A stretch of DNA of 64,000 nucleotides, taken from Mycobacterium sp. EPa45. Lineage in GTDB: Bacteria; Actinomycetota; Actinomycetes; Mycobacteriales; Mycobacteriaceae. A program made the translations under genes and the position numbers. The notes under the pieces were generated by a model. That model was not told the DNA's origin. It saw nothing but the letters and a program-made list of their open reading frames with translations, and made no database searches. The stretch is taken from positions 4,898,001 to 4,962,000 of the forward strand of contig NZ_CP011773.1 in the NCBI RefSeq assembly GCF_001021385.1, read 5' to 3'. This document shows, in pieces, positions 15,823 to 38,531 of this stretch (positions are counted from its first letter, which is position 1; each line of letters begins with the position of its first letter).

Positions 15823-16767
15823 GTGACTTCTGCTGCCGGCGTCGGATTGGCCACCATCACCGAGGACGGAACCGTCCTCGACACCTGGTTCCCGGATCCC
15901 GAACTGGGTGCCTACAGCCCGTCGGGCAGCGTCCGGCTCTCGGTCGCCGAGGTGCCCGATGACCTGGCCGCCGTGGCCGGCCCCGATGCCGCGCGCGGAG
16001 TCGAGACGATCGTCGTGCGCACGGTGATCGAGGACCTGGGCGACAAGCCGCTCGACACGTATGACGCCTACCTGAGGCTGCACCTGCTGTCGCATCGGCT
16101 CGTCGAGCCGCACGGGCTCAACCTCGACGGCATCTTCGGCGTGTTGACCAACGTGGTGTGGACGAACTTCGGGCCGTGCCAGATCGAGGGCTTCGAGGAT
16201 GTCCGGCTGCGGCTGCGCAGTCGCGGCACCGTGACGGTCTTCGGCGTCGACAAGTTCCCGCGCATGGTCGACTACGTGATGCCGACCGGAGTGCGGATCG
16301 CCGACGCCGACCGGGTGCGCCTCGGTGCGCACCTGGCGCCCGGCACCACGGTCATGCACGAGGGGTTCGTGAACTTCAACGCCGGCACGCTGGGCGCGTC
16401 GATGGTGGAGGGCCGCATCTCGGCCGGTGTGGTGGTCGGCGACGGCTCCGACGTCGGCGGCGGCGCATCGATCATGGGCACGTTGTCCGGCGGTGGCACG
16501 CAGGTGATCTCGGTGGGCAAGCGCTGCCTGCTCGGCGCCAATGCGGGTCTGGGCATCTCGCTGGGCGACGACTGCATCATCGAGGCCGGCCTCTACGTGA
16601 CGGCGGGCACCAAGGTCACCACCCCGGACGGGACGACGGTCAAGGCCCGCGAACTGTCCGGCGCGAACAACCTTCTGTTCCGGCGCAATTCGGTGACCGG
16701 TGCGGTCGAGGTGGTGGCTCGGGACGGTCAGGGCATCGCGCTGAACGAGGCCCTGCACGCCAACTAG
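15823..16767 (+). CDS. dapD: Tetrahydrodipicolinate N-succinyltransferase
   Basis: The enzyme succinylates tetrahydrodipicolinate with succinyl-CoA. The 314-residue protein starts at GTG, 4 bases after GGAG. The C-terminal half is a left-handed beta-helix: [34 protein letters not shown] and [16 protein letters not shown], with [20 protein letters not shown]. It is the actinobacterial type of DapD (Rv1201c). A minus-strand partner, dapE, starts 47 bases away, so a short divergent promoter controls two steps of the same pathway. Confidence 0.94.
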
Positions 16768-16871
16768 CTCGTCGACCGCGCTCGACTGTGCGGTTTCATC
16801 CGCGACTCGCCGCTCATCGGGTATGACGACGCACGTTCGTCGCGCCCGCGTGTGAAACATCACCGCTCGGG

Positions 16872-16877
16872 TATAGG
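16872..16877 (+). promoter_or_regulatory. Probable -10 box of malQ, leaderless
   Basis: TATAGG lies 6 bases before the GTG start of malQ at 16884. This spacing puts the transcription start at or next to the start codon, and no ribosome binding site is visible in the six bases between. The last base deviates from the TANNNT consensus. Confidence 0.4.
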
Positions 16878-16883
16878 TGCAGC

Positions 16884-18848
16884 GTGTTTCCGGAGGAGTT
16901 GCGGCAGCTGGCCGCCGCGCACGGGGTGGCCACGTCCTATCGCAACGAACGCCGGGAGCCGGTGGGTGTCGACGCCGAGGTGGTGATCCGCGTTCTCGGA
17001 TTGCTGGACGTCGACGCCGGCACCGAGGCCGGCAGGCGTGCCGAGCTGGCCAAGCTGGCCGAGCGCGACCGCGCGGGCCGGTTACCGCCCACTGTCGCGG
17101 TGCGCCTGGACGGTAACCCGCGTGCGATGCCCGGGGCCGAGCTCCTGGTCGGTGAGGACGGCAGCCGCATCGAGGTGGCTGACGAGGTGCCCGCGGACCT
17201 GGCGCCGGGCTGGTACCGGCTGCACACCCGCGACGGCCAGCAGATCACGTTGGTGGCGGCTCCAGCGCAGGTGCCGCAGACACCGAACACCTGGGGCTGG
17301 ATGGTGCAGCTCTACGCACTGCGATCGGCGCGCTCGTGGGGTATCGGCGATTTCGGCGATCTGCGCGAGTTCATCGAGTGGACGGCCGCAGAGCACGGCG
17401 CCGGGGCGGTGCTGCTCAACCCGTTGAGCGCGCCCGGCCCGACGCATCCGGTGCAACCGTCGCCCTACACCCCGTCGAGCCGGCGGTTCGCCAACCCGCT
17501 GGCGCTGCGCATCGAGGATCTCGACGCCTATCAGGCGGCAAGCCCGGACACCCGCAGCGAGGTGGACGCGCTCCGGGTTTCGTCGAGTACTGAGCGGATC
17601 GATCACGACCTGGTGTGGGCGGCGAAACGTTCTGCGCTGGAGGCACTCTGGCGATCGTCCGGCAGGCCTGACCCGCTCGAAGGGTTACCGGAGCCGGGCG
17701 GTCTGTCCGACTGGGCGACCTATTGCGCGCTCGCCGAACGTCACGGTGGGCGGTGGAGCCGCTGGCCGCACGAACTCCGCGATGTCCACGGTCGGGGTGT
17801 CGCTGGGGCGCGCCGGGAGCTGTTGCCCCGGATCGCATTTCACGCGTGGGTCCAGCAGCAGTGTGCCGAGCAGCTGGCGGCGGTGCGTGCGGCCGGACGA
17901 AACACCGGTATGGCTGTGGGTGTGCTGCACGACCTGCCCGTCGGTGTGGACGCCGACGGGGCCGACGCCTGGGCACTGGCTGATGTACTGGCCGGCGGCG
18001 TGAGCGTCGGGGCGCCCCCGGACAACTTCACCCCCCGCGGCCAGGACTGGGGGCTGCCACCGTGGCGTCCCGACCGGCTGGCGGCCACCGGCTACGCGGC
18101 ACTGCGAGACATGTTGCGCGCCATCCTGTCCCATGCGGATGGATTGCGGATCGACCATGTCGCCGGCCTGTGGCGACTGTGGTGGATCCCGCCGGGCGAC
18201 ACCCCCGACCGCGGCACCTACGTGCACTATGACGCCGAGGTCATGCTCGCGGTTCTCGCCCTGGAGGCACACCGGGCCGGGGCTGTCGTCGTCGGTGAAG
18301 ACTTGGGCACCGTCGAACCCGAGGTCACCGCGGCGTTGGCCGCCAACGAGATGCTGGGCTCGGCGGTCTCCTGGTTCACCCGCGACGAGTCCCAACCCGA
18401 CCAGCCGCTGCTGGCGTCAAAGGCATGGCCGTCGCGCGCCGCCGCGAGCCTGTCCACCCACGATCTGCCCACCGCCGCAGGGTTTCTCCGGGGCGAGCAC
18501 GTACGCGCACGCGCCGAGCTGGGATTGCTCGACGATGTACCGGCAGAGCAGACCAACGCGGACAAGGAGCGCGCCGAATGGCTGGCTTTGCTTCGCTCCG
18601 AAGGCCTTCTGGATGAGACCGAGTCCGACGAGGCCTCGATCATCGTTGCGATGCACCGCTTTCTGGCATCGACGCCGAGCCGGCTGAAGCTGATCTCGCC
18701 CTACGACGTGATCGGCGAGCCGCGGCAACCCAATCTGCCGGGCACGATCGACGAGTATCCGAACTGGCGACTACCCCTTGCGGAAACCCTCGAACAGCTA
18801 CGCGCAGATCCGCGCGTCACCGAGATCACCGCGGCCTTCCGGTCGTGA
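16884..18848 (+). CDS. malQ: 4-alpha-glucanotransferase
   Basis: This GH77 enzyme transfers alpha-1,4-glucan segments between maltodextrins in the cytosol. The 654-residue protein has an N-terminal extra domain typical of mycobacterial MalQ, then WGWMVQLYALRSARSWGIGDFGDL, the sugar-binding PLSAPGPTHPVQPSPYTPSS region, and the catalytic sequences ADGLRIDHVAGLWR (nucleophile Asp region), VVGEDLGTVEPEV (acid/base Glu) and STHDLPT. It starts at GTG. It sits in a window that also has glgC and glgM, so it likely helps remodel glycogen-type glucan. In M. tuberculosis the gene (Rv1781c) is elsewhere. Confidence 0.93.
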   Translation: MFPEELRQLAAAHGVATSYRNERREPVGVDAEVVIRVLGLLDVDAGTEAGRRAELAKLAERDRAGRLPPTVAVRLDGNPRAMPGAELLVGEDGSRIEVADEVPADLAPGWYRLHTRDGQQITLVAAPAQVPQTPNTWGWMVQLYALRSARSWGIGDFGDLREFIEWTAAEHGAGAVLLNPLSAPGPTHPVQPSPYTPSSRRFANPLALRIEDLDAYQAASPDTRSEVDALRVSSSTERIDHDLVWAAKRSALEALWRSSGRPDPLEGLPEPGGLSDWATYCALAERHGGRWSRWPHELRDVHGRGVAGARRELLPRIAFHAWVQQQCAEQLAAVRAAGRNTGMAVGVLHDLPVGVDADGADAWALADVLAGGVSVGAPPDNFTPRGQDWGLPPWRPDRLAATGYAALRDMLRAILSHADGLRIDHVAGLWRLWWIPPGDTPDRGTYVHYDAEVMLAVLALEAHRAGAVVVGEDLGTVEPEVTAALAANEMLGSAVSWFTRDESQPDQPLLASKAWPSRAAASLSTHDLPTAAGFLRGEHVRARAELGLLDDVPAEQTNADKERAEWLALLRSEGLLDETESDEASIIVAMHRFLASTPSRLKLISPYDVIGEPRQPNLPGTIDEYPNWRLPLAETLEQLRADPRVTEITAAFRS

Positions 18849-21259: not shown

Positions 21260-21763
21260 ATGAGCCGCCACAGTTGGGGTGCCACGCTGGTGGCCGCCGC
21301 GACGATCTGCGCCGCGGGACTGCTGTCCCCCGCCTCGGCGCACGGTCAGCCGCCGGCCTGGGACGGGCGCTACCAGATGATCACGTACGCCTCCCAGAAG
21401 GCTGGCACCAGTCCGGCCACCCGCCAGAAGGAGAACGACTTCGGCGCGGTCTTCACTCTGGCGACCGCATGTTCTGGCGGCAGGTGTGTCGCCACCGTCG
21501 TCGATGGTCCCGCGCCGAGTAACCCGACCATCCCGCAGCCGACCAAATACACCTGGAACGGCGCCGAGTGGGCCACCACCTACGACTGGGTGTGGGACTG
21601 TTTCCTCGGCGACGGCTACCAGAAGCAGTGGAGCCCGGCCACCTCGTGGGCCTTCTACACGCCACAGCCGGACGGGTCGCTGCGCGGCACATGGCATACC
21701 GACATCGCACAGGGGCCCTGCCGCGGTAGCGTCGTCATGCCCGTCGCAGCGATGCCGGCCTAG
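21260..21763 (+). CDS. Small secreted protein with cysteine pairs, unknown function
   Basis: A 167-residue protein with a clear signal peptide (WGATLVAAATICAAGLLSPASAHG, cleavage probably after SAHG or SASAHG). The mature part has four cysteines (in ATACSGGRC, WDCF and GPCRGS) that could form two disulphides, and many aromatic residues (KYTWNGAEWATTYDWVWDC), giving a beta-rich extracellular domain. I recognise it as a type of conserved mycobacterial exported protein but cannot assign a function. GAGGAG precedes the ATG. It is convergent with and overlaps the BcsB-like gene by 4 bases. Confidence 0.75.
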   Translation: MSRHSWGATLVAAATICAAGLLSPASAHGQPPAWDGRYQMITYASQKAGTSPATRQKENDFGAVFTLATACSGGRCVATVVDGPAPSNPTIPQPTKYTWNGAEWATTYDWVWDCFLGDGYQKQWSPATSWAFYTPQPDGSLRGTWHTDIAQGPCRGSVVMPVAAMPA

Positions 21764-23733
21764 TCATTGCTCCGTGCGGCGGGCTGACCACTGCGGCGGC
21801 GCAGCCACAACCACGCCGCGAACACGCCGAGGACGAATGCGCCGAGTATTCCGAAAACCACGCTCAGCGGCGGCGTCGACGAACCCCGAGAGGACGCCGG
21901 GGCGATTCTGTTGTCACGAATCGACATGTCGGCGGGAATCCCCTGCGCACCTGCGGCCAGGGTGTCGCCCGTCAGTTGCGACCAGCCGTCCGGCAGCTGC
22001 TCGATGTAACCGAACAGCGGTTCCACCAGTTGCCAGGCCGCGGTGGTGGTGACCAGGAGGACCGTGCGGTCGCGCGGCGGGTCGGCGAAGGCCTGAATCG
22101 AGCCCAGACCCGACCCGACGTCGGCCCGCAGCACCGTGGGTAGATCGAGGCTGATCGAGGATTGGTCCCCACTGACTGGCGGATTCAGCGTCGTCTGCTT
22201 GAGCGTTGTCGAGTTGGCGACGATCAGGGCTCCGAGCTTCGACTCGAGCGCCGACTTGAGGTCGACGACGCGCGGCGTCAGCTCAGCACTAGTGACTCGC
22301 GCCATGTCGACGACGAGCCGAGCGGCATAACTGAGTTGACCGGGACCGCTACCGTCCAGCGCCACCACGAAATGCGGGCTGAATTCGGAAGGCAAGGAAC
22401 GAAATCCACCAACCGCTAGCCCGCCGCGATGGACAGTGAGTGTCGATCGCGGATCGAGTTGGAAGGTGATCGGCGCGATCATCGGCGAACAGATCATCCG
22501 CGGGGTATAAGTCAACGCGAAATTCAGGACGATCCGTTCGGTGAGTACTTGTGCGGGCAGATCGAAGGTGGCGTCCAATCGGCCGCTGTCGTTGAGCGCT
22601 GAGGTGAACACAACGGTGCTGCCGGCGCGGACCATCACCGTCGCGCTGTCTTCTTTTGCCACCGGGGTGTAATCGGCGAGCAGGTGCACCCGAATGTTGT
22701 CGATCCGGCCGTCACTGAGCGCCGCGCGGTCGGCTCCGACCGTGAGGGTGGCCGTCCGCAGCACGTCCGCCTTGCCGGTCATCTGCAGCTGATCGAACGT
22801 CATCGTGTCGGTGGTGGCGCCGCGTCGCGAGCCCGCCTGGTCGACTCGGGCTCGCGGTGTCTGCGCCAGGTCCTGCACTCTATTGGCAAGCACGGATACC
22901 TGCGTCACAAGTTGGTCGTCCCGCCCGGATACTCGGAGCAGGGCCTCCGGAGTCCCGGCTCCAGCGATCTCGAGGCCGGCGGCGCCTCGCTCGACGAGAA
23001 CGGCTCGCGCCAACGGCCCGGCTGGCGGCGGTGTCGCTCCCCGGGGCTGTTCGGCAACAGTGATCACGACCGTTTGCGGCCGGTAGGCACGGGTCAGCGC
23101 TGCCGCCAGCGTCAGTACCGCCTGCTGCTCGGAACTGTCCGCATCGGTCGGTGCATACAGGACGACCCGCTGAAGCACCGAAGGAAAGAACGTCGCGATC
23201 GACGTCGGCGCGGGCTCGGCCCCGGCGAAGACGGTCGCAAGGTCGGTGATGCTCAACGTCTGCTGCGGGCCGCAATTCTCGTATGGCGCATTGGTATGGC
23301 GGACGGTGAAGGACAGCCCGACCGTGGAGTCGCCGGTGTGCGCGGCCGCGATGTCGATATCGAAGGGCACGACGACCTGATCCGCTGTCTGCGCCGCAGG
23401 GAAGTTCACCGCGCCGAGGAAGGCACCCCGGTCGTCATCGATCTCGAGATAGCCACCAGATATGTTGACAGGGGCATGAATCAGACCCCGTAAACGGTTG
23501 GGTCGGAAACCTGTCGGCAGCGGGACAGCAAAGTCTTGATTGACGTTGGTAGTGGGAAAATCGACACCTCTCGGTAAGCCGAGCTGCACCCAGCTAAGTG
23601 TCAACTCGCCAGGTGTCGCCAGCAACGTGGCATCGGGATCGGCTTGGGCCGAAGTAGGTTCGGCCAGCATAACCGCTGCGGGCGCGATCAGCAGCCAGAT
23701 TCCCAAGAGCGCCATCATCGTCCACCGACGCAT
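21760..23733 (-). CDS. BcsB-like exported membrane-anchored protein
   Basis: From the ATG at 23733 (GCGAGG 6 bases upstream) the product is 657 residues with a signal peptide MRRWTMMALLGIWLLIAPAA...TSAQA, a large extracellular part of repeated beta-sandwich and alpha/beta units, and one C-terminal helix (LSVVFGILGAFVLGVFAAWLW) before a basic tail. LGLPRGVDFPTTNVNQDFAVPLP and RLRGLIHAPVN resemble the N-terminal carbohydrate-binding repeat of cellulose synthase subunit BcsB. A longer start at TTG 23829 adds 32 residues. No BcsA partner is encoded in the window. It is divergent from the polymer-assembly genes. Confidence 0.65.
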   Translation of the reverse strand: MRRWTMMALLGIWLLIAPAAVMLAEPTSAQADPDATLLATPGELTLSWVQLGLPRGVDFPTTNVNQDFAVPLPTGFRPNRLRGLIHAPVNISGGYLEIDDDRGAFLGAVNFPAAQTADQVVVPFDIDIAAAHTGDSTVGLSFTVRHTNAPYENCGPQQTLSITDLATVFAGAEPAPTSIATFFPSVLQRVVLYAPTDADSSEQQAVLTLAAALTRAYRPQTVVITVAEQPRGATPPPAGPLARAVLVERGAAGLEIAGAGTPEALLRVSGRDDQLVTQVSVLANRVQDLAQTPRARVDQAGSRRGATTDTMTFDQLQMTGKADVLRTATLTVGADRAALSDGRIDNIRVHLLADYTPVAKEDSATVMVRAGSTVVFTSALNDSGRLDATFDLPAQVLTERIVLNFALTYTPRMICSPMIAPITFQLDPRSTLTVHRGGLAVGGFRSLPSEFSPHFVVALDGSGPGQLSYAARLVVDMARVTSAELTPRVVDLKSALESKLGALIVANSTTLKQTTLNPPVSGDQSSISLDLPTVLRADVGSGLGSIQAFADPPRDRTVLLVTTTAAWQLVEPLFGYIEQLPDGWSQLTGDTLAAGAQGIPADMSIRDNRIAPASSRGSSTPPLSVVFGILGAFVLGVFAAWLWLRRRSGQPAARSND

Positions 23734-24042
23734 CAGAAACCTCGCCGAGGGCAGGCTCGCAGCTCCACGCAATTCCACTTCCGTCGTGGTGGTTTCGACC
23801 GAATCGTGGGTTGGACGATACCGCGGCAAGATCCCGCCGATGTGTTATCGGAGACCGAACCCGCCGTCGGTGCCAACTTTTCGAGCACATTTCGACAGCG
23901 AATCAGTGTCGGCAGTGCAAAGTGGAAGTCATCGAAGTACAAAGGTGCAAATCTGGAGATTCGAGGGTTGATCCGTCGCTCTCGGTGAGTACGTCTCGGA
24001 CGACGTGGGATGGATCGCATTGCGAATTGAGGATGAAGCACC
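23734..24042. promoter_or_regulatory. Divergent control region of the polysaccharide locus
   Basis: A 309-base region without a credible gene separates the BcsB-like gene (minus) and the Wzz-like gene (plus). Bases 23865-23990 are visibly less GC-rich than the genes around. It must hold the promoters of both transcription units. GAGGATGAAGCACC before the GTG at 24043 is a ribosome site. I could not assign -35/-10 boxes or operators. Confidence 0.4.
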
Positions 24043-25401
24043 GTGACCGTGCCCGGCAGCACCCCTCGCGCGCCGGCGTCGTCACCGATTACCCCGTCGG
24101 CGCTCGAACGCCGCTCGTGGACAGCACGTCTCCTCACCGCAGCCGCTGTCGGCATCGTCATCGGAGCGATTGCCGGCGGCTTGACGCTGACGTTGTTGAG
24201 CGCGAAGACCACCGCGACCGCGCTGATCCGGATCGTTCAGCCTGCTGATCTGACCGCGATCGCCAGCGGCGCAACCCAGACCACGCCGAACACCCAGGAC
24301 AACCTCGATCGATACGTCGCCGGTGAGGTCGCCTACCTTTCTGGCGACGCGTTCGCCAAGTCGGTGGCCGAGAAGACCGGCAAGACCCGTCCCGCCGAAC
24401 TCACAGTCGACCAGAACGGGCGGTCCTCGGTGATAAGTATCAGCACCACCGCGTCGAACAGCGATGCCGCAATCCGGACCGTGCAGACCGCCATCGACCT
24501 CTACAGTCAGCAGTTGGCGGCGCGAGCCGACCGAGAGCTCCGCACCCTGCTTCCGACGCTGTCCCAGTGGGAGCAGACCAGCGCCACCGACGGACCACGG
24601 CTGGAACAGATTCAGCGACTGCGGGAGAGCGTCGTGCTGCTGGCGGGTCAATCGAGCGTGGTTCCCATCGTGCAGCCACCGACGGCCGACACCAACAGTG
24701 CGCATCCTGGATTGCTGGGAGCAGCGATCGGTGCATTCCTCGGCGGCTCAGCACTGCCGCTGTTGGTAATGGCTCACCGCCGCCGATCCGCGCGACTATG
24801 GTCGGTCACAAATCTGACGGACGCCGTTGACGCCGTGCTGGTTCCAGTGGTGGAACTGCGCGAACCACCGCTGCGCCCGTCGGTCCGAGAGCAGAGAGCC
24901 CGCCTGGCCCGAACGTTGTACGCGCAGTGTTGCTCGGCGGGAACGACGCAGACGATCCTCGTGATTGGCGCATCGCCCACCTCAGGTGCCGGCGTTGTGT
25001 CGTCACTTCTGGAAACCGCCGCTGCAGAGGCAGGTTCGGTTCAGTTGGTGACACTGAATCCCGAACAGGTGGACATTCCCGGCCTGGCTCGGACCGACAG
25101 CCGACAGACGTTGATCATCAACGCCGGCGCAGTCGGTGCCTCACCGTTGATGCCCGAAGCGGTCGAACGGGCGACGACGGTCGTCCTCACGGCCCGGCTG
25201 GAAGCCGACACCATGGCGCAAGTCCGTACCGTCTGTGCTGCAACCGAATTCAGCAGTGCGCGGCGGCTCGCCGCGGTCACCTATAGACCTTGGTGGCCGT
25301 CATGGTTCGCCCAGCGGGTTAAGCCGCACGGGCGACGTGGAGCCGGCCGGACCGGGACGAAGGTTGACCACGAGGGTGAGGGTGCTCATGACCAAGCCTG
25401 A
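24043..25401 (+). CDS. Wzz-like chain-length / co-polymerase protein with degenerate kinase domain
   Basis: The 452-residue protein has the polysaccharide co-polymerase layout: cytosolic start, membrane helix (about 30-53), an extracytoplasmic helical region with a coiled stretch (about 140-200), a second helix (223-244) and a cytosolic domain. That last domain follows the fold order of a BY-kinase/CpsD ATPase, but where Walker A should be there is GASPTSGAGVVSSLL (309-323), with no GK[ST]. TLIINAGAV and VVLTARLEADTM follow like the Walker B and later strands. It likely sets polymer length without ATP hydrolysis. It overlaps the next gene by 14 bases. Confidence 0.72.
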   Translation: MTVPGSTPRAPASSPITPSALERRSWTARLLTAAAVGIVIGAIAGGLTLTLLSAKTTATALIRIVQPADLTAIASGATQTTPNTQDNLDRYVAGEVAYLSGDAFAKSVAEKTGKTRPAELTVDQNGRSSVISISTTASNSDAAIRTVQTAIDLYSQQLAARADRELRTLLPTLSQWEQTSATDGPRLEQIQRLRESVVLLAGQSSVVPIVQPPTADTNSAHPGLLGAAIGAFLGGSALPLLVMAHRRRSARLWSVTNLTDAVDAVLVPVVELREPPLRPSVREQRARLARTLYAQCCSAGTTQTILVIGASPTSGAGVVSSLLETAAAEAGSVQLVTLNPEQVDIPGLARTDSRQTLIINAGAVGASPLMPEAVERATTVVLTARLEADTMAQVRTVCAATEFSSARRLAAVTYRPWWPSWFAQRVKPHGRRGAGRTGTKVDHEGEGAHDQA

Positions 25402-26536
25402 AGAGCGCGGCGCCGCCCCACGCATGGCGATCGTTCATGAACGACTCACTGAAATCGCAGGATCCGAATTCGTCACCGAACAGCTGGCGTACGAATGGCC
25501 AACCGCATCGATTCGCATCCCGATAGTGGATCCGAGGGCCCGCATCAGCTTCGCAGACCGCGTCGAGACCGGCGGCCTTTCGACCGCCTATCGCCTCTTG
25601 GGATATCGGACCTATGCGCCGCTGCTGCCGCTGGTTCCGCGGTGGCTCCGCCGGCTCGACTTCGCCAGTGCGGATGCGGTCATCATCAGTCACCACGCCT
25701 TCGCGATCGGTGCGGCACGGGCCGCCGGAACGCGACCGACGATCGCCTACGTCCACTCGCCAGCACGTTGGGCCTGGGACTCGACGATGCGCGAAGCCGA
25801 GGCCGATTCGTTGCCCGGTAAGGCCGCATTGAACGTGCTGTCGAGACAGGCGATCAAGAACGAGCTCCAGTCTTGCGGCAAGCTCACCACTGTCGTCGCA
25901 AACAGCAGGGCGGTCGCCGAGCGGATCGCTCGAAACTGGGGCCGGGAGGCCACCGTCGTCCACCCTCCGGTTGACACGGAGTTCTACACGCCGGATGCCG
26001 ACGAGCCGGTCGGCGACTTCTTTTTGTTGGCCGGCCGCCTGGTGCCGTACAAACGCCCCGAGATAGCGATCAAGGCCGCCGCGGCCGCCAAGGTGAGGCT
26101 CATCGTGGCCGGCGGCAGCCGAAAGTTCGACCATTACAGGCAGATTGCCGGTGATACTGATATCACGTTCTTGGGTAGGGTGTCCGATGACGAACTGCGC
26201 AGCCTGCAGCGGCGTGCTCTGGCTTGCCTGCTGCCGGGTGAAGAGGACTTCGGCATCGTTCCTGTCGAAGCCATGGCGTGCGGCACACCGGTTGTGGCGC
26301 TGGGTGTCGGTGGTGCGTGCGACAGCGTCGTCGACGGTGTGACCGGAGTGCTGGTCCGCGGCGACGACGACGCGTCGGTCATCGACGCGTTCGCCAGTAC
26401 TCTGGCCGAATTCGACCGCAAGTCATTCGACTCGGCAGAGATCCGTCGGCATGCCGAGGGCTTTTCACGCGCCGAGTTCCGGCGCAAGATGCGCGAGGTC
26501 GTCGACCGAACCCTGACCGCATATCAGGGAAGCTGA
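25388..26536 (+). CDS. GT4 family glycosyltransferase
   Basis: The ATG at 25388 is 7 bases after GAGGGTGAGG and gives 382 residues; it lies inside the end of the Wzz-like gene. MAIVHERLTEIAGSEFVTEQ opens the first Rossmann domain. AYVHSPARWAWDS is the acceptor-side motif common in GT4 mannosyltransferases of O-antigen clusters, LLAGRLVPYKRPEIAIKAAA starts the donor domain, and GEEDFGIVPVEAMACGTPVV holds the E-x7-E nucleotide-sugar motif. The donor sugar cannot be read from sequence. It acts on the cytosolic face on a lipid-linked sugar. The flippase-like gene follows after 7 bases. Confidence 0.88.
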   Translation: MTKPEERGAAPRMAIVHERLTEIAGSEFVTEQLAYEWPTASIRIPIVDPRARISFADRVETGGLSTAYRLLGYRTYAPLLPLVPRWLRRLDFASADAVIISHHAFAIGAARAAGTRPTIAYVHSPARWAWDSTMREAEADSLPGKAALNVLSRQAIKNELQSCGKLTTVVANSRAVAERIARNWGREATVVHPPVDTEFYTPDADEPVGDFFLLAGRLVPYKRPEIAIKAAAAAKVRLIVAGGSRKFDHYRQIAGDTDITFLGRVSDDELRSLQRRALACLLPGEEDFGIVPVEAMACGTPVVALGVGGACDSVVDGVTGVLVRGDDDASVIDAFASTLAEFDRKSFDSAEIRRHAEGFSRAEFRRKMREVVDRTLTAYQGS

Positions 26537-26543
26537 CACCGGA

Positions 26544-27698
26544 ATGCCCAATCGCAAACACGTGCAGGCCGTGGTCCAAGTGATGGCGGGCCTGGCCCTC
26601 AATGTGTTTCCCGCAATGTTCATCGCGGTCTACGCGCGGATGGCGCCGATCGAAAACCAGGGGTTCCTCGCGGTGGCTCTCGCCGTCGGCGTTTACGTGG
26701 CGCAGCTGTTCAACGCCTTCATCGTGGAAGGCAGACTGGCGACTCCCGAGGCAGATCACGATCTGTGCCTTCCGAACTGGACGGCCGCTCTGGCCCTCGT
26801 GTCGGGCGGCCTGCTGATATTCGGGCCGCCGGTCGCCCATCCCGCGGTGCTGATGCTCAGCTCGATCGGCATCATGACGGGCCTGCTTATGTCGCGGTCC
26901 ATCGGCGTGGTCACCGGTCGCTGGCAGACGGAGGCGCTCTCGGCCGGACTCTTGAGCGTGGCCAGCTTGGCCGCTCTCTATCTAGCCCAGATCCACAATG
27001 ACAACTGTGTTCGGGTCCTTGCACTCGGCGCGGTTGTCGCCATCGGAATTCGCTATTGGCCCCGTACCGCCCTACAGGGTCTCATGCTGCCCTCGGATGT
27101 TCGCCGGGCGAGCTGGGTCACCGGCGAGACCGCCGTGGTCGGCGCGGTTCAACCGGCCATCACCTCGGTCGTGCTAGTTCTGCTGGGACCCGCTGCGTCC
27201 GTGGCATTCCGCGTCATCTCAACCATGTCCGGGGCCCTCGAGCCGATCCTGGCCTATGGGAGGTATCGACTGCTGGCCCACGGGCACAAGGGTGAAGTAG
27301 CGATTGTCGCCGTCATCTTCTCGGCGGGTCTCGCCGCCGTCCTCGCGGTCGCGTTCTCCGGCCTGGGCCAGCTGGTGTTCGGCACGGCGTGGGCCAACGT
27401 GGGTGCCGTTGCGTTGCTCCTCGCCTGCGTGTGGAAGGGCTTCATGCTGCTGTCGACCGTGCCGTTCGCGGCCCTCCGCAAGGCCGGCGAGACGGCGCAG
27501 GTCTTCTGGATTCGCGCGACCAGCACCGTGATCTACCTGATCATCGGTCTGACAGCGGTCGTCATCTGGCGGTCCAACACCGCGATCTTCCTGGGCTTCG
27601 CTCTTGCCGAGATGGCAACGGCCGTGGTCTATCACCGGGCCGCAGTCCGCGGTGCGCCCGACTACCAGGTTCGGCTTCGTCGGCCGCAGCGCCGATGA
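26544..27698 (+). CDS. Wzx-like polysaccharide flippase
   Basis: A 384-residue integral membrane protein with about ten to twelve hydrophobic segments and few charged residues between them. Features such as an early Arg/Glu pair (IEGRLATPEADHD), the SVAFRVISTMSGALEPILAYGR segment and the basic tail fit MOP/oligosaccharide flippases, although it is shorter than most. It would turn the lipid-linked repeat unit across the membrane. The call leans on position: GT4 upstream, polymerase downstream, with an ATGA overlap to the latter. It could alternatively be another polysaccharide transporter. Confidence 0.6.
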   Translation: MPNRKHVQAVVQVMAGLALNVFPAMFIAVYARMAPIENQGFLAVALAVGVYVAQLFNAFIVEGRLATPEADHDLCLPNWTAALALVSGGLLIFGPPVAHPAVLMLSSIGIMTGLLMSRSIGVVTGRWQTEALSAGLLSVASLAALYLAQIHNDNCVRVLALGAVVAIGIRYWPRTALQGLMLPSDVRRASWVTGETAVVGAVQPAITSVVLVLLGPAASVAFRVISTMSGALEPILAYGRYRLLAHGHKGEVAIVAVIFSAGLAAVLAVAFSGLGQLVFGTAWANVGAVALLLACVWKGFMLLSTVPFAALRKAGETAQVFWIRATSTVIYLIIGLTAVVIWRSNTAIFLGFALAEMATAVVYHRAAVRGAPDYQVRLRRPQRR

Positions 27699-29032
27699 TC
27701 GACACCACCGCGCCCGCCCCGCCCGCCGGCGTGGGCTACTCCTATGCACCCGTTGTGGCTCGATGGTGGTTCAACCCGGCGGTCTTTGCGCTCGCCCCAT
27801 TCCTCGCGGGACTTGTGGGATGGTCAGTTTCGTTAGGGTGGCGTCACATCCATTCCGGACCAGCGTCCTGGGACAAACTGCTGGGCTTCGCCGTCCCCGC
27901 CCGGGTGACACCCGGTGGCGTCACGCTGCTTCTGTTGTGGTGGGCCGCGGTGATCTCGATCTCGATGCTCGGCTGGCGACTCGGCTCAGCGGGCGGGCGG
28001 TCCAGGGCCGGCTGGCTCAGCCTCACGACGCCGGACATGGAACGCCGATACTTCGTGTTGGTCACCGCGGTTGCAGGGCTTGGCATCGCGTACACCATCT
28101 ACCAAGTTGGCGGACCCACTTCGATTTTGGCGTCGTTGGCCAGTCAATCCGCCAATGACGTCTCCAACGCGATGTCCCAAACTGCCGGGGGACAAACCCT
28201 GCGATTCGCCACCATCCTGGCCGCACCGATCGGTGTTCACCTCTGGCGCCAGAAAGTCATTCCGTTTTTCTACATGGTGATCGCGGTTGGTCTGCTGCTC
28301 ACCAGCGCAATGATCTCCTCCCGATTGTCTTTGCTGATGGCGGGATTCGTCTACCTCGCGATCTTTGCCCGCAACCGCCCAGTACCGGTACGCGATGCCG
28401 GCGATACGGCCAAGCGGATCGGCATCATCATCGGAATCCTGGTCATCGGAGTCGGGCTCCTCACCGCCATGAACTACTTCCGCAACGCGAACTACTACCG
28501 CGAGGCCGGCGTGACCAATCCACTGGTGATGAACCTCTATCAGACGGGCGCGTATTTGACTGTCCCCACACAGGTTTCGCTGGGCGTGTCCACCGCGATC
28601 ATGAACAGCGACTGGCAGAATCCCGGCGATCCGATCACCTCGTCGGACGCCATCAAGCCCACCTTCCTGCAGTTCAAGAAGATCACCAAGGACAACAGCT
28701 GGAAAGATGCCAACGAGTACCACTATGCAGTGAACTTCGAACCCAACTTCTTCACCAATTCGGTGTTCGCCGACACCTACGCCGACTTCGGGATGTGGGG
28801 GTGGTTCTACACATTTCTCATCTACGGTTTCGCCGGGTTTCTCTTCGCCCGGCTGATCCGGTATGGCCCCGTGATCGCCGGCTCCGGGGGCGTACTGGCG
28901 TACTGCTTCTCCGAGATCTGGCGCATCCAGATCTTGAGCTACGGCATAGTGATCTTCTTGATGCTGCTCACGGTGGGGTGCTCGGTGTTGACCGTAGCAA
29001 TGACCAAGCGGCACAACGCACCGAAGGCGTAG
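27695..29032 (+). CDS. Wzy-like polysaccharide repeat-unit polymerase
   Basis: The ATG at 27695 overlaps the flippase stop (ATGA) and gives 445 residues with about ten membrane helices. A large extracytoplasmic loop, about residues 265-365 (from NYFRNANYYREAG to VFADTYADFGMWG), sits between the helices, as in O-antigen polymerases and ligases. RLSLLMAGFVYLAIFARNR resembles the region before that loop. Wzy proteins join repeat units at the outer face of the membrane. The stop is 3 bases from that of the convergent beta-helix gene. Confidence 0.72.
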   Translation: MIDTTAPAPPAGVGYSYAPVVARWWFNPAVFALAPFLAGLVGWSVSLGWRHIHSGPASWDKLLGFAVPARVTPGGVTLLLLWWAAVISISMLGWRLGSAGGRSRAGWLSLTTPDMERRYFVLVTAVAGLGIAYTIYQVGGPTSILASLASQSANDVSNAMSQTAGGQTLRFATILAAPIGVHLWRQKVIPFFYMVIAVGLLLTSAMISSRLSLLMAGFVYLAIFARNRPVPVRDAGDTAKRIGIIIGILVIGVGLLTAMNYFRNANYYREAGVTNPLVMNLYQTGAYLTVPTQVSLGVSTAIMNSDWQNPGDPITSSDAIKPTFLQFKKITKDNSWKDANEYHYAVNFEPNFFTNSVFADTYADFGMWGWFYTFLIYGFAGFLFARLIRYGPVIAGSGGVLAYCFSEIWRIQILSYGIVIFLMLLTVGCSVLTVAMTKRHNAPKA

Positions 29033-29035
29033 ACC

Positions 29036-30535
29036 CTAGCCGCGCCGAATGGTCATGCGCACGGACTGCCCGACTCCCGAAGCGCCGGTGAGATGCACTG
29101 GCGCCCATGCGGTAGGTGCACTGTCCCAGGTGATTCGGAGACCGTCGACTACCCCGTCACAGTTTTCGAAACCCGTGCACGGTCCCGGCTTGTCCGGTGG
29201 GTCACCGTCGGTGATCGTGACAGCCAGCCGATCGACAGCGAGATCGCCAACGTCGTTGGCCGCGAACGCCAATACCGCCCGGCTGTGCCGAATCGACAGC
29301 GCATTCAGTCGGCTGTGACTGGTATTGGCCAGGCCCACACCGCCGTTGCCGCCAGCCGACGACGACGCCTCGACAGCGCACGACCGCAGGTCGAACCCAG
29401 TCGCGCGTTGGTCGGTCAGCGATTCCGCACGTAACGACCAATTTTTGCAGTCGCGGATCGCCGCATCCTCGATCGCGACGTCGAAGTGAGTGAACCGAGG
29501 ATCGACGGCATCGTCGGGGCGGGCCAAGAGGTGGATGCCGGTCTCGCAGGAATCGATCGCCACGTCCGACATGTGCACGCCGCGTGACGCCACATAGTGC
29601 CATCCGACATCATTGCCCGGCGCGGCCGAATCGATCATCACCGCAGCACCGGAGTCGACTCCCCCGATGGCCAGCCCCGTGAGAGTCACCCCGCGGGCGC
29701 CGGCCAACCGAACGCCGTTGGCCTTCCCACCATCGATGGTCACATTGCTGACGGCGAACGAGTCGTTGGACCATTCGGTCAAGTCCGGGAACGAAAAGGT
29801 CTGCGCGGCAGAGTCAATCACCCGCTTGGGAGCGTAGTAGGTGACCAGAGCCAGTCCGTCGTCACCGGCGCCGACGGCGGTGTAACCGTCGACCCGGCCC
29901 CGCCTGCAGGCATTGAAGTGCAAGCCATCCGCCCGGGTGTTCTCCGTCCTCAGGCCGTCGACGCGGATGTCAGACGTCCCGATCATGATCACTCCGGCCT
30001 GTGGGCTGCCCCGAACCGAGCAGTGCGACAGCGCAACTCGGCTTACCGGGCCGTGACGCCAGCCACGGGAGAAGGGGTCGCCCACGATGCGGATGCCATC
30101 CCCCATCGAACGGATCGCGGGTCGCGCCCAGCGGATCGCGACATTACGCAACTCCACGTCCTCGGCCGGCCCGTGGACGAGAATGCCGTGGCCGGTGCCC
30201 GTGCCAGCGGCCCGATCGAGGTTGTCCATCAACAGCTCTGCACCGGCGTCGAATTCGACGGTCACTCTGGACAGGCCGCCGATGACGATGGCGGCGTCAG
30301 CCGTCGGATGGAGCTCAGCGAATCGATATGTGCCACTTGGGAAATACAGCGTGCTGTTGGTCCGCAGCGCGGCGACAGCTCGGCGAATCGCCGCCGAGTC
30401 GTCGGTGACCCCGTCCCCCTTGGCGCCGTGGTGACGGACGTTGACCGTGCGATGCACCTCGTGGCGCGCGAACGCGACGACCACTCCCAGTGCAGGCACA
30501 CCTAGCAGCAGGTGCCGCCTCGATACTCGCGCCAT
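29036..30535 (-). CDS. Tat-exported right-handed beta-helix (pectin lyase-like) protein
   Basis: A 499-residue protein beginning MARVSRRHLLLGVPALGVVV, a twin-arginine signal (SRRHLLL). The mature part opens with VNVRHHGAKGDGVTDDSAAI, the signature of Pectate_lyase_3/GH28-like beta-helices, and goes on with many short repeats such as ISHCSVRG-like and VSNVTIDGGKANGVRLAGA. Such proteins are lyases, hydrolases or C5-epimerases of polysaccharides. Beside a polymerase and glycosyltransferases it may trim or modify the exported polymer. The ATG overlaps the stop of the upstream GT4 gene by one base (TGATG). Confidence 0.78.
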   Translation of the reverse strand: MARVSRRHLLLGVPALGVVVAFARHEVHRTVNVRHHGAKGDGVTDDSAAIRRAVAALRTNSTLYFPSGTYRFAELHPTADAAIVIGGLSRVTVEFDAGAELLMDNLDRAAGTGTGHGILVHGPAEDVELRNVAIRWARPAIRSMGDGIRIVGDPFSRGWRHGPVSRVALSHCSVRGSPQAGVIMIGTSDIRVDGLRTENTRADGLHFNACRRGRVDGYTAVGAGDDGLALVTYYAPKRVIDSAAQTFSFPDLTEWSNDSFAVSNVTIDGGKANGVRLAGARGVTLTGLAIGGVDSGAAVMIDSAAPGNDVGWHYVASRGVHMSDVAIDSCETGIHLLARPDDAVDPRFTHFDVAIEDAAIRDCKNWSLRAESLTDQRATGFDLRSCAVEASSSAGGNGGVGLANTSHSRLNALSIRHSRAVLAFAANDVGDLAVDRLAVTITDGDPPDKPGPCTGFENCDGVVDGLRITWDSAPTAWAPVHLTGASGVGQSVRMTIRRG

Positions 30536-31644
30536 CAAGTCTGCAACTCCATAACGATTGTGTCCACGGCCGCGGTGAACGGTGCTTCCGACTGCCGACG
30601 ATTGACATACGACCAGCCTCTGGCCGCCAACTCGGCGCGGGCGGCATCATCGCCGCAGTACTTGCGCAGCAGCGCCGTCAGGCCCGGGATGTCCGTGGGA
30701 TCGAAGTATTCCGCCCCCACCCCGCAGGTTTCTTTGACTGCCGGGATGTCAGAGGCCACGACAGCGGTGCGTGAGGCCATCGCCTCCAGCGGTGGCAGCC
30801 CGGCCCCTTCACACAGCGACGGCATCACCAGCAGCTCGGCGCCCGCGACGAGTGAGCGCAACGCCTCAAACTCGAGCCGTCCGGCCAGGACCACCCGGTC
30901 GCCAAGACCGGCGGCAACCTGCTGCACGCGCTCGTCGAGCGTCCGCAAGGACTCCCCGCCACCGGCAATCACCAACTTGTGTGGAATCGAGCCGGCGACG
31001 TCGGCGAATGCCTGCAGCAGCATCGGCAGATTCTTGTGGCGCTTCACGTTTCCGACGTAGAGCAGGTACCTCCCCTGCACCGGCGACAGCGCAGGATCGA
31101 CGCCGGCGAACCACTCTTCGCCGACCGGAATCGGAGAGACGATCGGCGCGCACCGGGCCACCTGGCGAAGCGCGTGGGCGGTCGCCCTGGACGGCGTGAA
31201 AATTGCCCGACATTTGCGGGCATCGACGGTGAACATCGTGCGCGCGTAGGCGCGCTTCACCCAATTCTGGTCGCTGATTTCTGGGGGCAGTAGCTGAATT
31301 GTGTCGTGGACCGTGACGAAAGCGGCAATATCGTGGTTCCCGGGCTTCAACAGGGCGAACGGATAGGGATATTGCGGCAGCCAGATCGCCCTAGGCCGGC
31401 ACTGCTTGAGCGCGTTGTTCCAAACCCGCTGTTCATCGAGGGAATACATAGGTGCATTCGCCGGCTGAGTCACCACCACCTCGGTGTTTGCATCGACTCG
31501 AGGGATGGAATCCGCGTCGGCCAAAACCGCGAGTTTCAGGCCATTGCGCGGCAGAATTTCCGCCAGGTGTGGCAACTGCATTCGGATATATGTCCCAATG
31601 CCACTGGAGTTGATGTGGCGGATGTCGAACAATAAATCTGCCAT
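30535..31644 (-). CDS. GT4 family glycosyltransferase, second of the locus
   Basis: The ATG at 31644 is preceded by AAGGAG at 5 bases and gives 369 residues starting MADLLFDIRHINSSGIGTYIR, whose GIGTY loop is typical of GT4 enzymes. FVTVHDTIQLLPPE, FTPSRATAHALRQ, LLYVGNVKRHKNLPMLLQA and MPSLCEGAGLPPLEAMASRT (E-x7-E type motif) complete the fold. It resembles mannosyl- or rhamnosyltransferases of O-antigen loci. It is coupled to the beta-helix gene and divergent from the acyltransferase. An upstream TTG at 31668 is less likely. Confidence 0.87.
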   Translation of the reverse strand: MADLLFDIRHINSSGIGTYIRMQLPHLAEILPRNGLKLAVLADADSIPRVDANTEVVVTQPANAPMYSLDEQRVWNNALKQCRPRAIWLPQYPYPFALLKPGNHDIAAFVTVHDTIQLLPPEISDQNWVKRAYARTMFTVDARKCRAIFTPSRATAHALRQVARCAPIVSPIPVGEEWFAGVDPALSPVQGRYLLYVGNVKRHKNLPMLLQAFADVAGSIPHKLVIAGGGESLRTLDERVQQVAAGLGDRVVLAGRLEFEALRSLVAGAELLVMPSLCEGAGLPPLEAMASRTAVVASDIPAVKETCGVGAEYFDPTDIPGLTALLRKYCGDDAARAELAARGWSYVNRRQSEAPFTAAVDTIVMELQT

Positions 31645-31745
31645 ATCTCCTTCAACCCCTCGTGCCAACGCCTCGACTCAGATTACCGCCGCAGCGAGCA
31701 AACATTGCCAGTGACGTCCTACCAACCCGGTAACGGAAGGCCACA

Positions 31746-33056
31746 ATGGACTACGTGACCGACTATGCGACCAGTACTGCCGTGCGTAACCACGCCGTGG
31801 ACCTGTACCGGGTGGGCGCCCTGCTGTTCGTCGTCGTCGGGCATTGGATCGCGGCGTCGCTGACCTTCTCCGACGGATCGTTCTGGCGAGACAACCCCCT
31901 CGTCGACCTGCCCTGGACCCAGTGGCTGACATGGATCTTCCAAGTCGTCCCGGTGTTCTTCGTGGTGGCGGGCTATGCCAGCGCGGTGTCGTGGACCCAC
32001 CGAGACCCGGGTGAGTCGCGGCAGGCCTGGCTGCGTCGGCGGCTGGTCCGCCCGATCGGGCCGACGGCGGTGTACGTCGCGTTCGCGTTGGTGGTTGTGG
32101 CGGTGCTGAGCCGCATCGGGGTGACCGGTTCGGAGCTCGACTTCGGCGCCTGGGCGGTGGCCATGCATCTGTGGTTCCTGGGCATCTACGTGCTGGTGGT
32201 CGCGCTGACACCGGTCGCGGTCGCCGCGCATCAGCGCTGGGGCAAGTGGGTGCCGTTCATCATCACGCTCGCGGTCGCGGCGGTAGACCTGGCGACCATC
32301 GGTGCCGACGTGCCCTACATCGGCTGGCTGAATTATCTGCTGGTGTGGTGGGTGCTCTATCAGCTCGGCATTGCCTGGCACGACGGCACACTGTGCCGGC
32401 GCGCGGCGATCGCGCTGGCGGTGCTTTCGGCGATCGTGTTGGCTCTGCTCGTCACGGTCGGGCCGTACCCGGTCAGCATGATCGGCGTACCGGGCGCGAC
32501 CGTGAACAACACCGGTCCGCCCAACCTGGCGCTTCTGGCCCTCGGCGGCGTGCAGGCCGGCGTGGCGCTGGCGATCGCCCCGGCGGTCGACCGAATGGTG
32601 AAATCGGTTCGCGCTCGACGCATTCTGGCGGTCGCCAACGACAATGTGATGGCGCTCTATCTGTGGCACATGATTCCGGTCGTGATCGTGGCCCTCGCCG
32701 GGTATCCGACCGGTCTGCTGCCGCAACCGGAGCTGGGCTCGGCGGCCTGGTGGTGGTTCCGGCTGGAGTGGGTGGCGATCCTTGCCGTCGTCGCCGCCGT
32801 CGAGCTGGTGTTGTTGTGGTGGGGCCGCAGGTTGTTCTCCGCGCCGCTGCCGACATTTGGAGTCGCCATCCCGCCATCGCTGGGCGAGGTGCTGTTGTTC
32901 GCGGGCACCATCACGATCGCGGCGACGATCACGGTCTTCGCCACCCTCGGCTTCGCCCCGGCCGGGCGTGTCCCGGTCGCAGCGAGTGTCGGGTTCGCGG
33001 TGGGTGTGGCGCTGGTGGCGCTGGCGCCCGTCAATACGCGTCGAACCCGAGTTTGA
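31746..33056 (+). CDS. Acyltransferase 3 family membrane protein
   Basis: A 436-residue protein with about ten membrane helices. The N-terminus RNHAVDLYRVGALLFVVVGHW has the conserved Arg and catalytic-type His of acyltransferase 3 (OafA-like) enzymes, and VFFVVAGYASAVSW and LYLWHMIP are further family marks. These proteins move acyl groups, often acetyl, from the cytosol to sugars outside. Next to the polysaccharide genes it may O-acylate the repeat unit, though mycobacteria also carry such proteins for other glycolipids. It overlaps the convergent TauE gene by 26 bases. Confidence 0.8.
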   Translation: MDYVTDYATSTAVRNHAVDLYRVGALLFVVVGHWIAASLTFSDGSFWRDNPLVDLPWTQWLTWIFQVVPVFFVVAGYASAVSWTHRDPGESRQAWLRRRLVRPIGPTAVYVAFALVVVAVLSRIGVTGSELDFGAWAVAMHLWFLGIYVLVVALTPVAVAAHQRWGKWVPFIITLAVAAVDLATIGADVPYIGWLNYLLVWWVLYQLGIAWHDGTLCRRAAIALAVLSAIVLALLVTVGPYPVSMIGVPGATVNNTGPPNLALLALGGVQAGVALAIAPAVDRMVKSVRARRILAVANDNVMALYLWHMIPVVIVALAGYPTGLLPQPELGSAAWWWFRLEWVAILAVVAAVELVLLWWGRRLFSAPLPTFGVAIPPSLGEVLLFAGTITIAATITVFATLGFAPAGRVPVAASVGFAVGVALVALAPVNTRRTRV

Positions 33057-33753
33057 CCGCCAGCACCAGCCCGGCGGCACCGATGAGGATCCGCAGCGGG
33101 GTGCCTGGAGCGTGCCGCACGACGATCGGCCCCAGCCGTGAACCGATCAGGCAGCCCGCACCCAGTGGGATCACCGCGAGCCAGTGCACCGGCGCGAAGA
33201 CCGCGAACACCACTGCCGCGACGCAGTTCGCCAGGCCGAGCAGGATGTTCTTGGCGGCGTTGGCGTGGGCCAGGCTGTCGGCGCCGGCGTTGAGGAGCAA
33301 CGCCAGGAACAGCACACCGGCCGCGGCACCGAAATAGCCTCCGTAGAGCGCGATTCCGAAGATCGCGAGCGCCTCGGCCACCAGCACAGCACGGCGCCTG
33401 CGCCCGGGCTGGGGCGTACCGAGCGGCGCCACGATGGCCAGCGAGGCCACGCCGAGCAGTACCGGAACGACTTTTTCGAAGGCGTCCGCCGGGGTGGTCA
33501 GCAGCAGCACCGCACCGGTTGCACCGCCCGCGACGGTCAGCGGCGCCATCCGGGCGATGAAACGGCCCTGACCGACCAGTTCGGGCCTGGAGCCCCACGC
33601 CGAACCGATGCCGTTGAACACCAGCGCCACCGTGTTGGTCACATTCGCCGTGACCGGCGGCAGCCCGATCGCCAGCAGGGCCGGATAGGTCGCCACTGAC
33701 GCCAACCCGGCGATACTGCCCGTCAGCCCACCGAGCACACCAGCGATCAGCAA
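33031..33753 (-). CDS. TauE/SafE family permease
   Basis: A 240-residue membrane protein with seven to eight helices and the duplicated motif of the TauE/SafE family: GGLTGSIAGLASVATYPALLAIGLPPVTANVTN and later GGYFGAAAGVLFLALLL...AHANAAKN. The family exports or takes up organosulphur anions, sulphite or similar. The TTG at 33753 is the first usual start; a CTG at 33777, 6 bases after GGAGGA, would add LSALDAVT and has the better ribosome site, so the true start is uncertain. Confidence 0.85.
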   Translation of the reverse strand: MLIAGVLGGLTGSIAGLASVATYPALLAIGLPPVTANVTNTVALVFNGIGSAWGSRPELVGQGRFIARMAPLTVAGGATGAVLLLTTPADAFEKVVPVLLGVASLAIVAPLGTPQPGRRRRAVLVAEALAIFGIALYGGYFGAAAGVLFLALLLNAGADSLAHANAAKNILLGLANCVAAVVFAVFAPVHWLAVIPLGAGCLIGSRLGPIVVRHAPGTPLRILIGAAGLVLAVKLGFDAY

Positions 33754-36968: not shown

Positions 36969-38531
36969 ATGCGTGAGACCGGCGTCGGCCTGGGTCAGCT
37001 GGTGTTGGCTCTGGATGCGACGCTGGTGCGGCTCGTCGAAGCGCCGCGTGGCCTCGACCGCCCGGTGCGCTCGGCCGCGCTGATCGATTCCGACGACGTG
37101 CGGTTGGGCCTGGCGATCAGCGCCGGCTCGGCCGACGTGTTCTTCCTGCTCGGCATCTCCGACGCCGACGCCGTCCGATGGCTGGACCGGCAGGTCGCCG
37201 CGCACGGCTCCCCCGCGGCGATCTTCGTCAAAGGCCCGTCCGAAGCCGTCGTCGCCCGCGCGGTCGCGGCGGGCACGGCCGTTGTCGCAGTCGAGGACAA
37301 GGCCCGCTGGGAGCGGCTGTATCGCCTGGTCAATCATGTCTTCGACCACCGGCGATCCGACGCGGTCACCGATTCGAGCACCGACCTGTTCGCCTTGGCT
37401 CAGTCGATCGCCGACCGCACCCACGGCATGGTCAGCATCGAGGACGCGCAGTCACATGTGCTCGCCTACTCGGCGTCCAACGACGAAGCCGACGAGCTGC
37501 GGCGGTTGTCGATCCTGGGCCGGGCCGGCCCGCCCGAGCATCTGCGGTGGATCGCCCAGTGGGGCATCTTCGACCGGCTTCGGGCGGGCACCGACGTGGT
37601 GGCCGTCGACGAGCGGCCCGAATTGGGACTGCGGCCGCGGCTGGCGATCGGCATCCATCGCCAAGACCAGCGCCCGGGCTTCGACGGCACGATCTGGGTG
37701 CAGCAGGGTTCGCGACCACTGGCCGACGACGCCGAGGAGGTGTTGCGCGGCGCGGCGGTGCTGGCGGCCAGGATGACGGCCCGCCTGGCCGCGCGGCCGT
37801 CGGCGCATCTGCTGGCCGTGCAGCAGCTGCTCGGGCTGACCGACACCGACGACGCGGACGTGCCCGCCGTGGCGCGGGAACTCCGCATCCCGCTCGACGG
37901 CCGTGCCGCCGTGATCGGCGTCGTCGCCGCCGACGGCGAGGCTCGGCTGTCCGATGTTCTGGCGCTGAGCGCCAGCGCTTTTCGCCCGGATGCCCAGGTC
38001 GCCGCCAACGGCTCCCGGGTCTACGTGGTACTGCCCGACTCCGGGCGCACCGCCGCGGTGGTGTCGTGGATCCGCGGCACCATCAGCACGCTGCGCGCCG
38101 AGCTCGGCCTCGACCTGCGTGCGGTGATCGCGGCCCCGATCGCCGGGCTGGCTGCGGTCGCCGGCGCCCGCCGCGAGATCGACCGAGTCTTCGACAGCGC
38201 GCAGCGCCACCCTGTGTTCGGTCAGGTGACAACGCTGGCCGAGGCGCGCACCACGGTGCTGCTCGATGAGATCGTCACGCTGGTGGCCGCCGACGAAAGG
38301 CTGATCGATCCTCGCGTGCGCGGACTGCGTCACTCCGAGCCCATCCTGGCCGAGACGCTGCAGGTGTATCTCGACTGTTTCGGCGACGTGGCAGCGGCCG
38401 CGGCGGCGCTGCAGGTGCACCCCAACACTGTCCGTTATCGGGTACGCCGCATTGAGCAGGTACTTTCCACTTCACTGAGCGATCCTGACGTCCGGCTACT
38501 ACTCTCACTAAGCCTGCGGGCAACCGCTTGA
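36969..38531 (+). CDS. PucR family transcriptional regulator of proline catabolism
   Basis: The 520-residue protein has an N-terminal PucR sensor region (about 20-150), a central GGDEF-like/CdaR domain (DGRAAVIGVVAADGEARLSDV) and the C-terminal PucR helix-turn-helix: YLDCFGDVAAAAAALQVHPNTVRYRVRRI. It is divergent from the pruA-proline dehydrogenase operon and matches Rv1186c, which I recall as an activator of these genes (called PruC). It probably senses proline or pyrroline-5-carboxylate. A hairpin overlaps its stop codon. Confidence 0.88.
   Translation: MRETGVGLGQLVLALDATLVRLVEAPRGLDRPVRSAALIDSDDVRLGLAISAGSADVFFLLGISDADAVRWLDRQVAAHGSPAAIFVKGPSEAVVARAVAAGTAVVAVEDKARWERLYRLVNHVFDHRRSDAVTDSSTDLFALAQSIADRTHGMVSIEDAQSHVLAYSASNDEADELRRLSILGRAGPPEHLRWIAQWGIFDRLRAGTDVVAVDERPELGLRPRLAIGIHRQDQRPGFDGTIWVQQGSRPLADDAEEVLRGAAVLAARMTARLAARPSAHLLAVQQLLGLTDTDDADVPAVARELRIPLDGRAAVIGVVAADGEARLSDVLALSASAFRPDAQVAANGSRVYVVLPDSGRTAAVVSWIRGTISTLRAELGLDLRAVIAAPIAGLAAVAGARREIDRVFDSAQRHPVFGQVTTLAEARTTVLLDEIVTLVAADERLIDPRVRGLRHSEPILAETLQVYLDCFGDVAAAAAALQVHPNTVRYRVRRIEQVLSTSLSDPDVRLLLSLSLRATA

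Follow-up and report, generated by a model that had tools for sequence, protein, structure and literature searches.

Among the described systems closest to the locus treated here are Wzx/Wzy-dependent exopolysaccharide loci such as wps and imp in Actinoplanes missouriensis, for which the published account (PMC13390465) gives a flippase, a polymerase, a co-polymerase and glycosyltransferases, together with a bacterial sugar transferase; according to the same account, the sporangium matrix made by imp is cut by the glycoside hydrolases GimA and GimB. In the consulted passages of two other articles (PMC12167362, PMC6364259), cellulose and other polymers are reported in mycobacterial biofilms, the machinery for their synthesis is called unknown, and M. 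tuberculosis is described as lacking BcsA and BcsB; genes for putative cellulose synthase components are ascribed there to M. neoaurum and M. cosmeticum (PMC6364259). We analyzed a 64,000-nucleotide stretch of Mycobacterium sp. EPa45 (hereafter the window; G000:C1:4898001-4962000, within a one-contig genome of 6.18 Mb), and found a seven-gene cassette at window positions 21760-31668, which we consider quite probable to make and export a repeat-unit polysaccharide via the Wzx/Wzy-dependent route, in which the initiator is unlinked, a BcsB relative takes part and a hydrolase trims the chain. The gene content, the predicted folds of the flippase and the BcsB-like protein, a conserved aspartate triad, the co-inheritance of the genes and the presence of empty sites in relatives were all computed directly. 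In contrast to the A. missouriensis clusters, for which BcsB is not mentioned in the main text of PMC13390465, the present cassette contains a BcsB relative; it also has a Tat (twin-arginine translocation)-exported beta-helix protein, and its initiator is unlinked. The pathway type itself is known, but its pairing with a BcsB relative in a genome where the search for a CelA-type synthase was negative appears to be new as far as our literature search shows, and no published description of the cassette was found among the matches listed. A concrete and testable polysaccharide gene set is now available for environmental mycobacteria.

Eight open frames sit between fadD36/NUDIX and the proline genes, and all of them are present where a first-pass annotation of this DNA had placed them. 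Conservation of their products in relatives identifies seven of these frames as genes, with further database matches for the BcsB-like protein and the flippase. On the minus strand, 21760..23829 encodes a BcsB-family periplasmic protein with an N-terminal signal or membrane segment and a C-terminal membrane anchor; its true start is likely to be near 23733, and the database version of the protein (P0009) has 657 aa. The intergenic region 23830..24042 separates this gene from the divergently oriented co-polymerase gene and likely holds a promoter region, and the divergent order recurs in many relatives. On the plus strand there follow a putative polysaccharide co-polymerase of the PCP/Wzz type (24043..25401), a first glycosyltransferase of family 4 (GT4; 25388..26536; PF00534, E 2e-24; PF13439, E 4e-12), a predicted Wzx-type flippase of the MOP superfamily (26544..27698) and a putative Wzy-type polymerase (27695..29032). 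On the minus strand lie the gene for the Tat-exported beta-helix protein (29036..30538; PF12708, E 6.8e-15), whose start is likely the ATG at 30535, and a second GT4 gene coupled to it (30535..31668; PF00534, E 1.9e-23). The tight spacing claimed earlier was borne out by measurement: the co-polymerase and GT4 genes overlap by 14 bp, a gap of 7 bp separates the GT4 and flippase genes, the flippase and polymerase genes overlap by 4 bp (27695-27698), and the beta-helix and second GT4 genes overlap at 30535-30538. Four proteins gave no significant match in the Pfam scan: the BcsB-like protein, the co-polymerase, the flippase and the polymerase.

The polymerase was found in 23 of 248 genomes of the genus (one of these being a 74-residue match in G171) and in 6 of 251 genomes of the family, which represent 3 of 31 genera including its own; Gordonia proteins are named among the listed polymerase homologues. 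A pattern search of named records gave 15 matches, of which 3 encode a relative (M. vinylchloridicum, Mycolicibacterium sp. P1-5 and an uncultured Mycobacterium). We compared 23 relatives' loci (L004 and 22 others), and all seven genes occur together in 13 of them (L004, L032, L038, L039, L040, L042, L045, L046, L047, L049, L050, L052 and L055). Of the others, L054 has only a more distant beta-helix paralogue; L041, L043, L044, L056 and L057 have no worthwhile match to the first GT4; L051 is without BcsB; in L048 the co-polymerase match is split in two, and the first GT4, the flippase and any nearby BcsB are missing; the L053 contig measures 5 kb; and L033 retains only a polymerase remnant. 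In the closest relatives read (L004, L038 and L039) the seven proteins are 77-92% identical to those of the window, which suggests selection.

In the route that we infer, including its step order, its product, the role of the BcsB relative and the choice of initiator, an orphan sugar-phosphate transferase (G000:C1:5331560-5333041) would put the first sugar on polyprenyl phosphate, and the two GT4 enzymes, probably together with others from the genome, would finish the repeat unit. The MOP flippase would move this unit to the outer face, where the Wzy-like enzyme, controlled by the two-helix co-polymerase, would polymerise the units. The membrane-anchored BcsB relative would bind the growing chain and guide it across the periplasm, and the Tat-exported beta-helix hydrolase would trim or release the chain.

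Neither the BcsB nor the flippase family matched a solved structure by profile search, and the folds of both proteins were therefore predicted. For the flippase, the model (predicted local distance difference test score, pLDDT, 79.9) was compared with solved structures, and 49 of the best 50 listed matches are named MATE, MurJ, WzxE or MOP-superfamily, the remaining one bearing only the name 'protein A'; one peptide transporter and one nucleoside transporter appear below the MOP rows of the Foldseek list at E about 0.01. This result speaks against an unrelated transporter, the outcome that had been named as a test of the annotation. The modeled fold indicates the MOP superfamily and not Wzx specifically; the protein is only 7-13% identical to the lipid III flippase WzxE, MurJ and MATE proteins, and the Wzx role is taken from context. 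When 54 members of the flippase family were searched, a P5-ATPase model matched one member (E 0.0024), which we treated as chance, and no other Pfam model was found at E 0.01.

The evidence for the polymerase is weak yet consistent at the level of sequence families. The window protein matches TIGR04370 of NCBIfam at E 1.9e-6 (27.1 bits, below the cut-off of 40) but reaches no better than E 0.33 with PF14296; PF14296 is precomputed on 7 of 120 listed homologues, whose NCBI names include O-antigen polymerase, and the polymerase profile gave only one weak and unrelated PDB row (E 0.36) against solved structures. Thus, of the Wzx/Wzy assignment made initially, the flippase part fits the predicted fold, while the polymerase part stays below the curated cut-off. 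The co-polymerase has hydrophobic segments at residues 34-52 and 224-242, and its C-terminal part, in our reading of the alignment, may resemble a degenerate bacterial tyrosine kinase (BY-kinase) without the Walker-A lysine. Its profile match to PslE of the Psl system is weak (49 positions, E 0.025) and insufficient for membership, and the window protein has no significant match in Pfam or NCBIfam; the Wzz-like label fits by its two-segment layout and locus position and not by family match.

The roles of these unnamed proteins are supported by gene positions in sister loci, 12 of which were read out of 30 genomes having a top-class BcsB and no match to the cassette polymerase. A protein of a different family (c6) adjoins BcsB at the co-polymerase position in 11 of the 12, and is accompanied in 9 of the 12 by a membrane protein (c8) with 7-10 hydrophobic segments in a crude scan. 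In L063, the one locus from which Pfam assignments of sister-locus proteins were taken, c6 is a PF02706 Wzz protein with a kinase-like tail and c8 is PF04932 Wzy_C; the genes that follow encode a GT2 and a PF13440/PF01943 flippase. These loci also bear on the best-surviving alternative, in which the genes would build a short lipid-linked oligosaccharide for transfer, by the Wzy-like protein acting as a ligase, to a lipid or a protein, as in glycolipid or O-glycan synthesis. O-antigen ligases and polymerases are hard to distinguish by sequence, and the below-cut-off match of the Wzy-like protein to the repeat-unit polymerase family is in line with such an enzyme. We nevertheless consider a ligase unlikely, because most mycobacterial loci carry a co-polymerase-type protein and a BcsB relative, which would be superfluous in that route, and because a PF02706 Wzz is present in the sister locus.

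An initiating enzyme had been expected outside the block, and this was confirmed: the genome holds three PF02397 transferases, none within the block, and we propose the orphan transferase, which adjoins a GAF-domain gene, as a candidate for the missing enzyme. With 12 transferases encoded in relatives' loci it shares 50-55% identity, as compared with 29-37% for the other two transferases of the genome. In a tree it groups with the locus-encoded transferases of three loci from other genera at 94/89, a support below the tree program's own mark for firm branches, and a 100/100 split divides its group from the two remaining PF02397 transferases of the genome. The L080 transferase is on a long branch of this tree, for which the program warns of long branches meeting, and the locus-encoded transferases of L042 and L046 are in the other group. 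A further point weighs against the proposed role: the orphan transferase is also retained in genomes without the cassette polymerase. On balance, we suppose that it may serve the cassette as initiator.

Of the 23 relatives' loci, 14 contain such a transferase, 12 the GAF gene, 11 a short cis-prenyltransferase and 10 a FAD enzyme, with the family names taken from one locus, L040. In that locus (15925-17978) and in 10 more, the short cis-prenyltransferase stands beside the initiating transferase, mostly with the FAD amine-oxidase-like gene. Strong matches to the prenyltransferase occur in 44 of 248 genomes; it lies within 3 kb of a PF02397-type transferase in 33 of the 44, accompanies a top-class BcsB in 36 of the 44 and is present in 14 of the 23 polymerase genomes, while no match was found in the EPa45 genome at E 1e-15. 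It is possible that this enzyme is a dedicated supply of lipid carrier. The absence of the initiator and the prenyltransferase from the block, both being found in many relatives' loci, the lack of a close prenyltransferase match in the genome and the remnant in G171, which suggests decay of such loci, would suit a cassette that is partial or idle here and yields no product without adjacent initiator and sugar genes. This explanation appears quite unlikely to us, since all seven frames are open with the aforementioned identity in the three closest loci, and a matching orphan GAF-PHPT pair exists in the genome.

The BcsB-like label given at first was borne out by the predicted fold of the protein, which has a C-terminal membrane anchor. 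The fold is common with the cellulose synthase subunit BcsB (PF03170; E. coli 6YG8, 9FMT and 7L2Z) over ~520 residues, as are the signal segment and the anchor with E. coli BcsB. The window protein has no sequence match to PF03170, which matches 23 of 62 aligned members of its family (best 4.4e-7), and several homologues carry the database label 'cellulose biosynthesis cyclic di-GMP-binding regulatory protein BcsB'. A profile search of the genome for CelA (TIGR03030) at E 0.001, in which synthases of other families were not sought, gave no match, and the same search gave matches in 11 of 14 control genomes, above the cut-off in 1; the Pfam scan of the block found no BcsA-type gene. On this basis we file the protein as a BcsB-fold relative and not as a cellulose synthase subunit: that it marks a cellulose-type synthase to which its neighbors are accessory would suit the homologue names and the fold, but is highly improbable, since the genome is without a TIGR03030 match in a search that works in the controls and the gene accompanies a flippase and a polymerase, not a found BcsA-type synthase.

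No match to the Wza/OPX exporter PF02563 was found in the genome, and 4 of 14 control genomes have one. Gram-positive Wzx/Wzy systems are not known to have this exporter either, and its absence therefore excludes only the Gram-negative form of the pathway. We tentatively suggest, as a possibility still doubtful, that BcsB-labelled proteins of mycobacteria and their relatives are general periplasmic partners of Wzx/Wzy systems, not cellulose synthase subunits, and direct polymer towards the mycomembrane in place of a Wza-type channel, and that the cis-prenyltransferase beside the initiator in many loci would provide the system with a lipid carrier independent of the one used for the cell wall. 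Eight loci of lower-score BcsB class (L070-L077) have no match to the cassette flippase or polymerase profiles, and the one membrane protein scanned there has no Pfam family; they lend no positional support of the kind given by the sister loci. A second, distant BcsB-like gene of the genome (L037 9037-15133, G000:C1 ~1.230-1.236 Mb) adjoins a PF00884 sulfatase and a PF03781 sulfatase-modifying enzyme, and the four scanned genes after it contain no glycosyltransferase. Genes for phosphate acetyltransferase, acetate kinase and/or PknG (named from one member per family) flank BcsB-type cassettes in L044, L058, L059, L068, L070 and L072, and the same kind of genes borders the short polymerase remnant of L033; this neighborhood is perhaps a shared site for such cassettes.

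The beta-helix assignment is based on Pfam (PF12708) and not on a fold model. In all 21 aligned sequences the RR of the Tat motif, D204, G205, H207, G225, D226 and D227 are invariant. A profile of the family matches the GH87 alpha-1,3-glucanase Agl-KA (5ZRU) at E 1.8e-10 overall; the match covers short stretches, and for the one holding the aspartates the domain E-value alone is 0.023. The N-terminal beta-helix motif is common to both proteins. As stated in the consulted part of the Agl-KA report (PMC6814745), activity requires D1067, D1090 and D1091, residues also found in GH28 and GH49; the aspartate spacing is 22 and 1 here, and 23 and 1 in Agl-KA. The protein is probably an inverting glycoside hydrolase acting on the polymer. 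Six relatives' loci hold a second, more distant beta-helix copy, and the one scanned also matches PF00295 (GH28).

TauE was present in 15 of 19 genomes searched, and 11 of those loci were retrieved for comparison. Eight of them lack the cassette and have NUDIX, the acyltransferase, TauE and ProDH in succession; the remaining three retain TauE alone. These empty sites therefore delimit the cassette to 21760-31668, and the PF01757 acyltransferase (31746..33056, plus strand; E 1.7e-18), which the first-pass annotation had counted as a member, was rejected as such: it adjoins TauE in 8/8 cassette-free neighborhoods, without the other seven genes, and belongs to the old backbone. On the right, the TauE/SafE family gene (33031..33753, minus strand; PF01925, E 4e-31) is part of the conserved neighborhood. 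On the left, the plus-strand gene 21260..21763, whose stop overlaps that of the BcsB gene, is retained beside the acyltransferase in 7 of the 8 empty sites; it gave nothing in a Pfam scan at E 0.001 and is without a match in locus L104.

The boundary also agrees with the GC content at third codon positions, which is 0.744-0.816 for the seven cassette genes and 0.814-0.870 for eight neighbors including the acyltransferase (0.87). Overall GC is 0.647 in the block and 0.681 in the rest of the window, as had been judged by eye, but it is ordinary for the genome: in 116 overlapping 11.3-kb windows from ~400 kb of genome plus the two window flanks, the mean was 0.659 (standard deviation 0.0215), and 28% were equally low or lower. 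We accordingly rejected GC content as proof of transfer, and the suspected horizontal transfer is supported instead by the empty sites and the patchy distribution. No mobile-element genes were seen at the junctions, an observation made without a search of an element library. In a tree built for 12 loci from four flanking proteins (fadD36, TauE, ProDH and the acyltransferase), occupied sites fall in two places split at 100/100, which means repeated loss or exchange of the cassette; one insertion followed by losses and several exchanges at one site would both be compatible with this tree.

Two minor observations concern other regions. The genome contains a separate polysaccharide-like locus (L035, G000:C1:815900-835800) with a PF02397 transferase, a Wzy_C protein (PF04932), glycosyltransferases and a two-component system. 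The contigs of the three named relatives end in the small open reading frame 38717-39355 (window ~38400-39000), ~9.4 kb downstream of the polymerase, and this shared end perhaps reflects a repeated or hard-to-assemble sequence.

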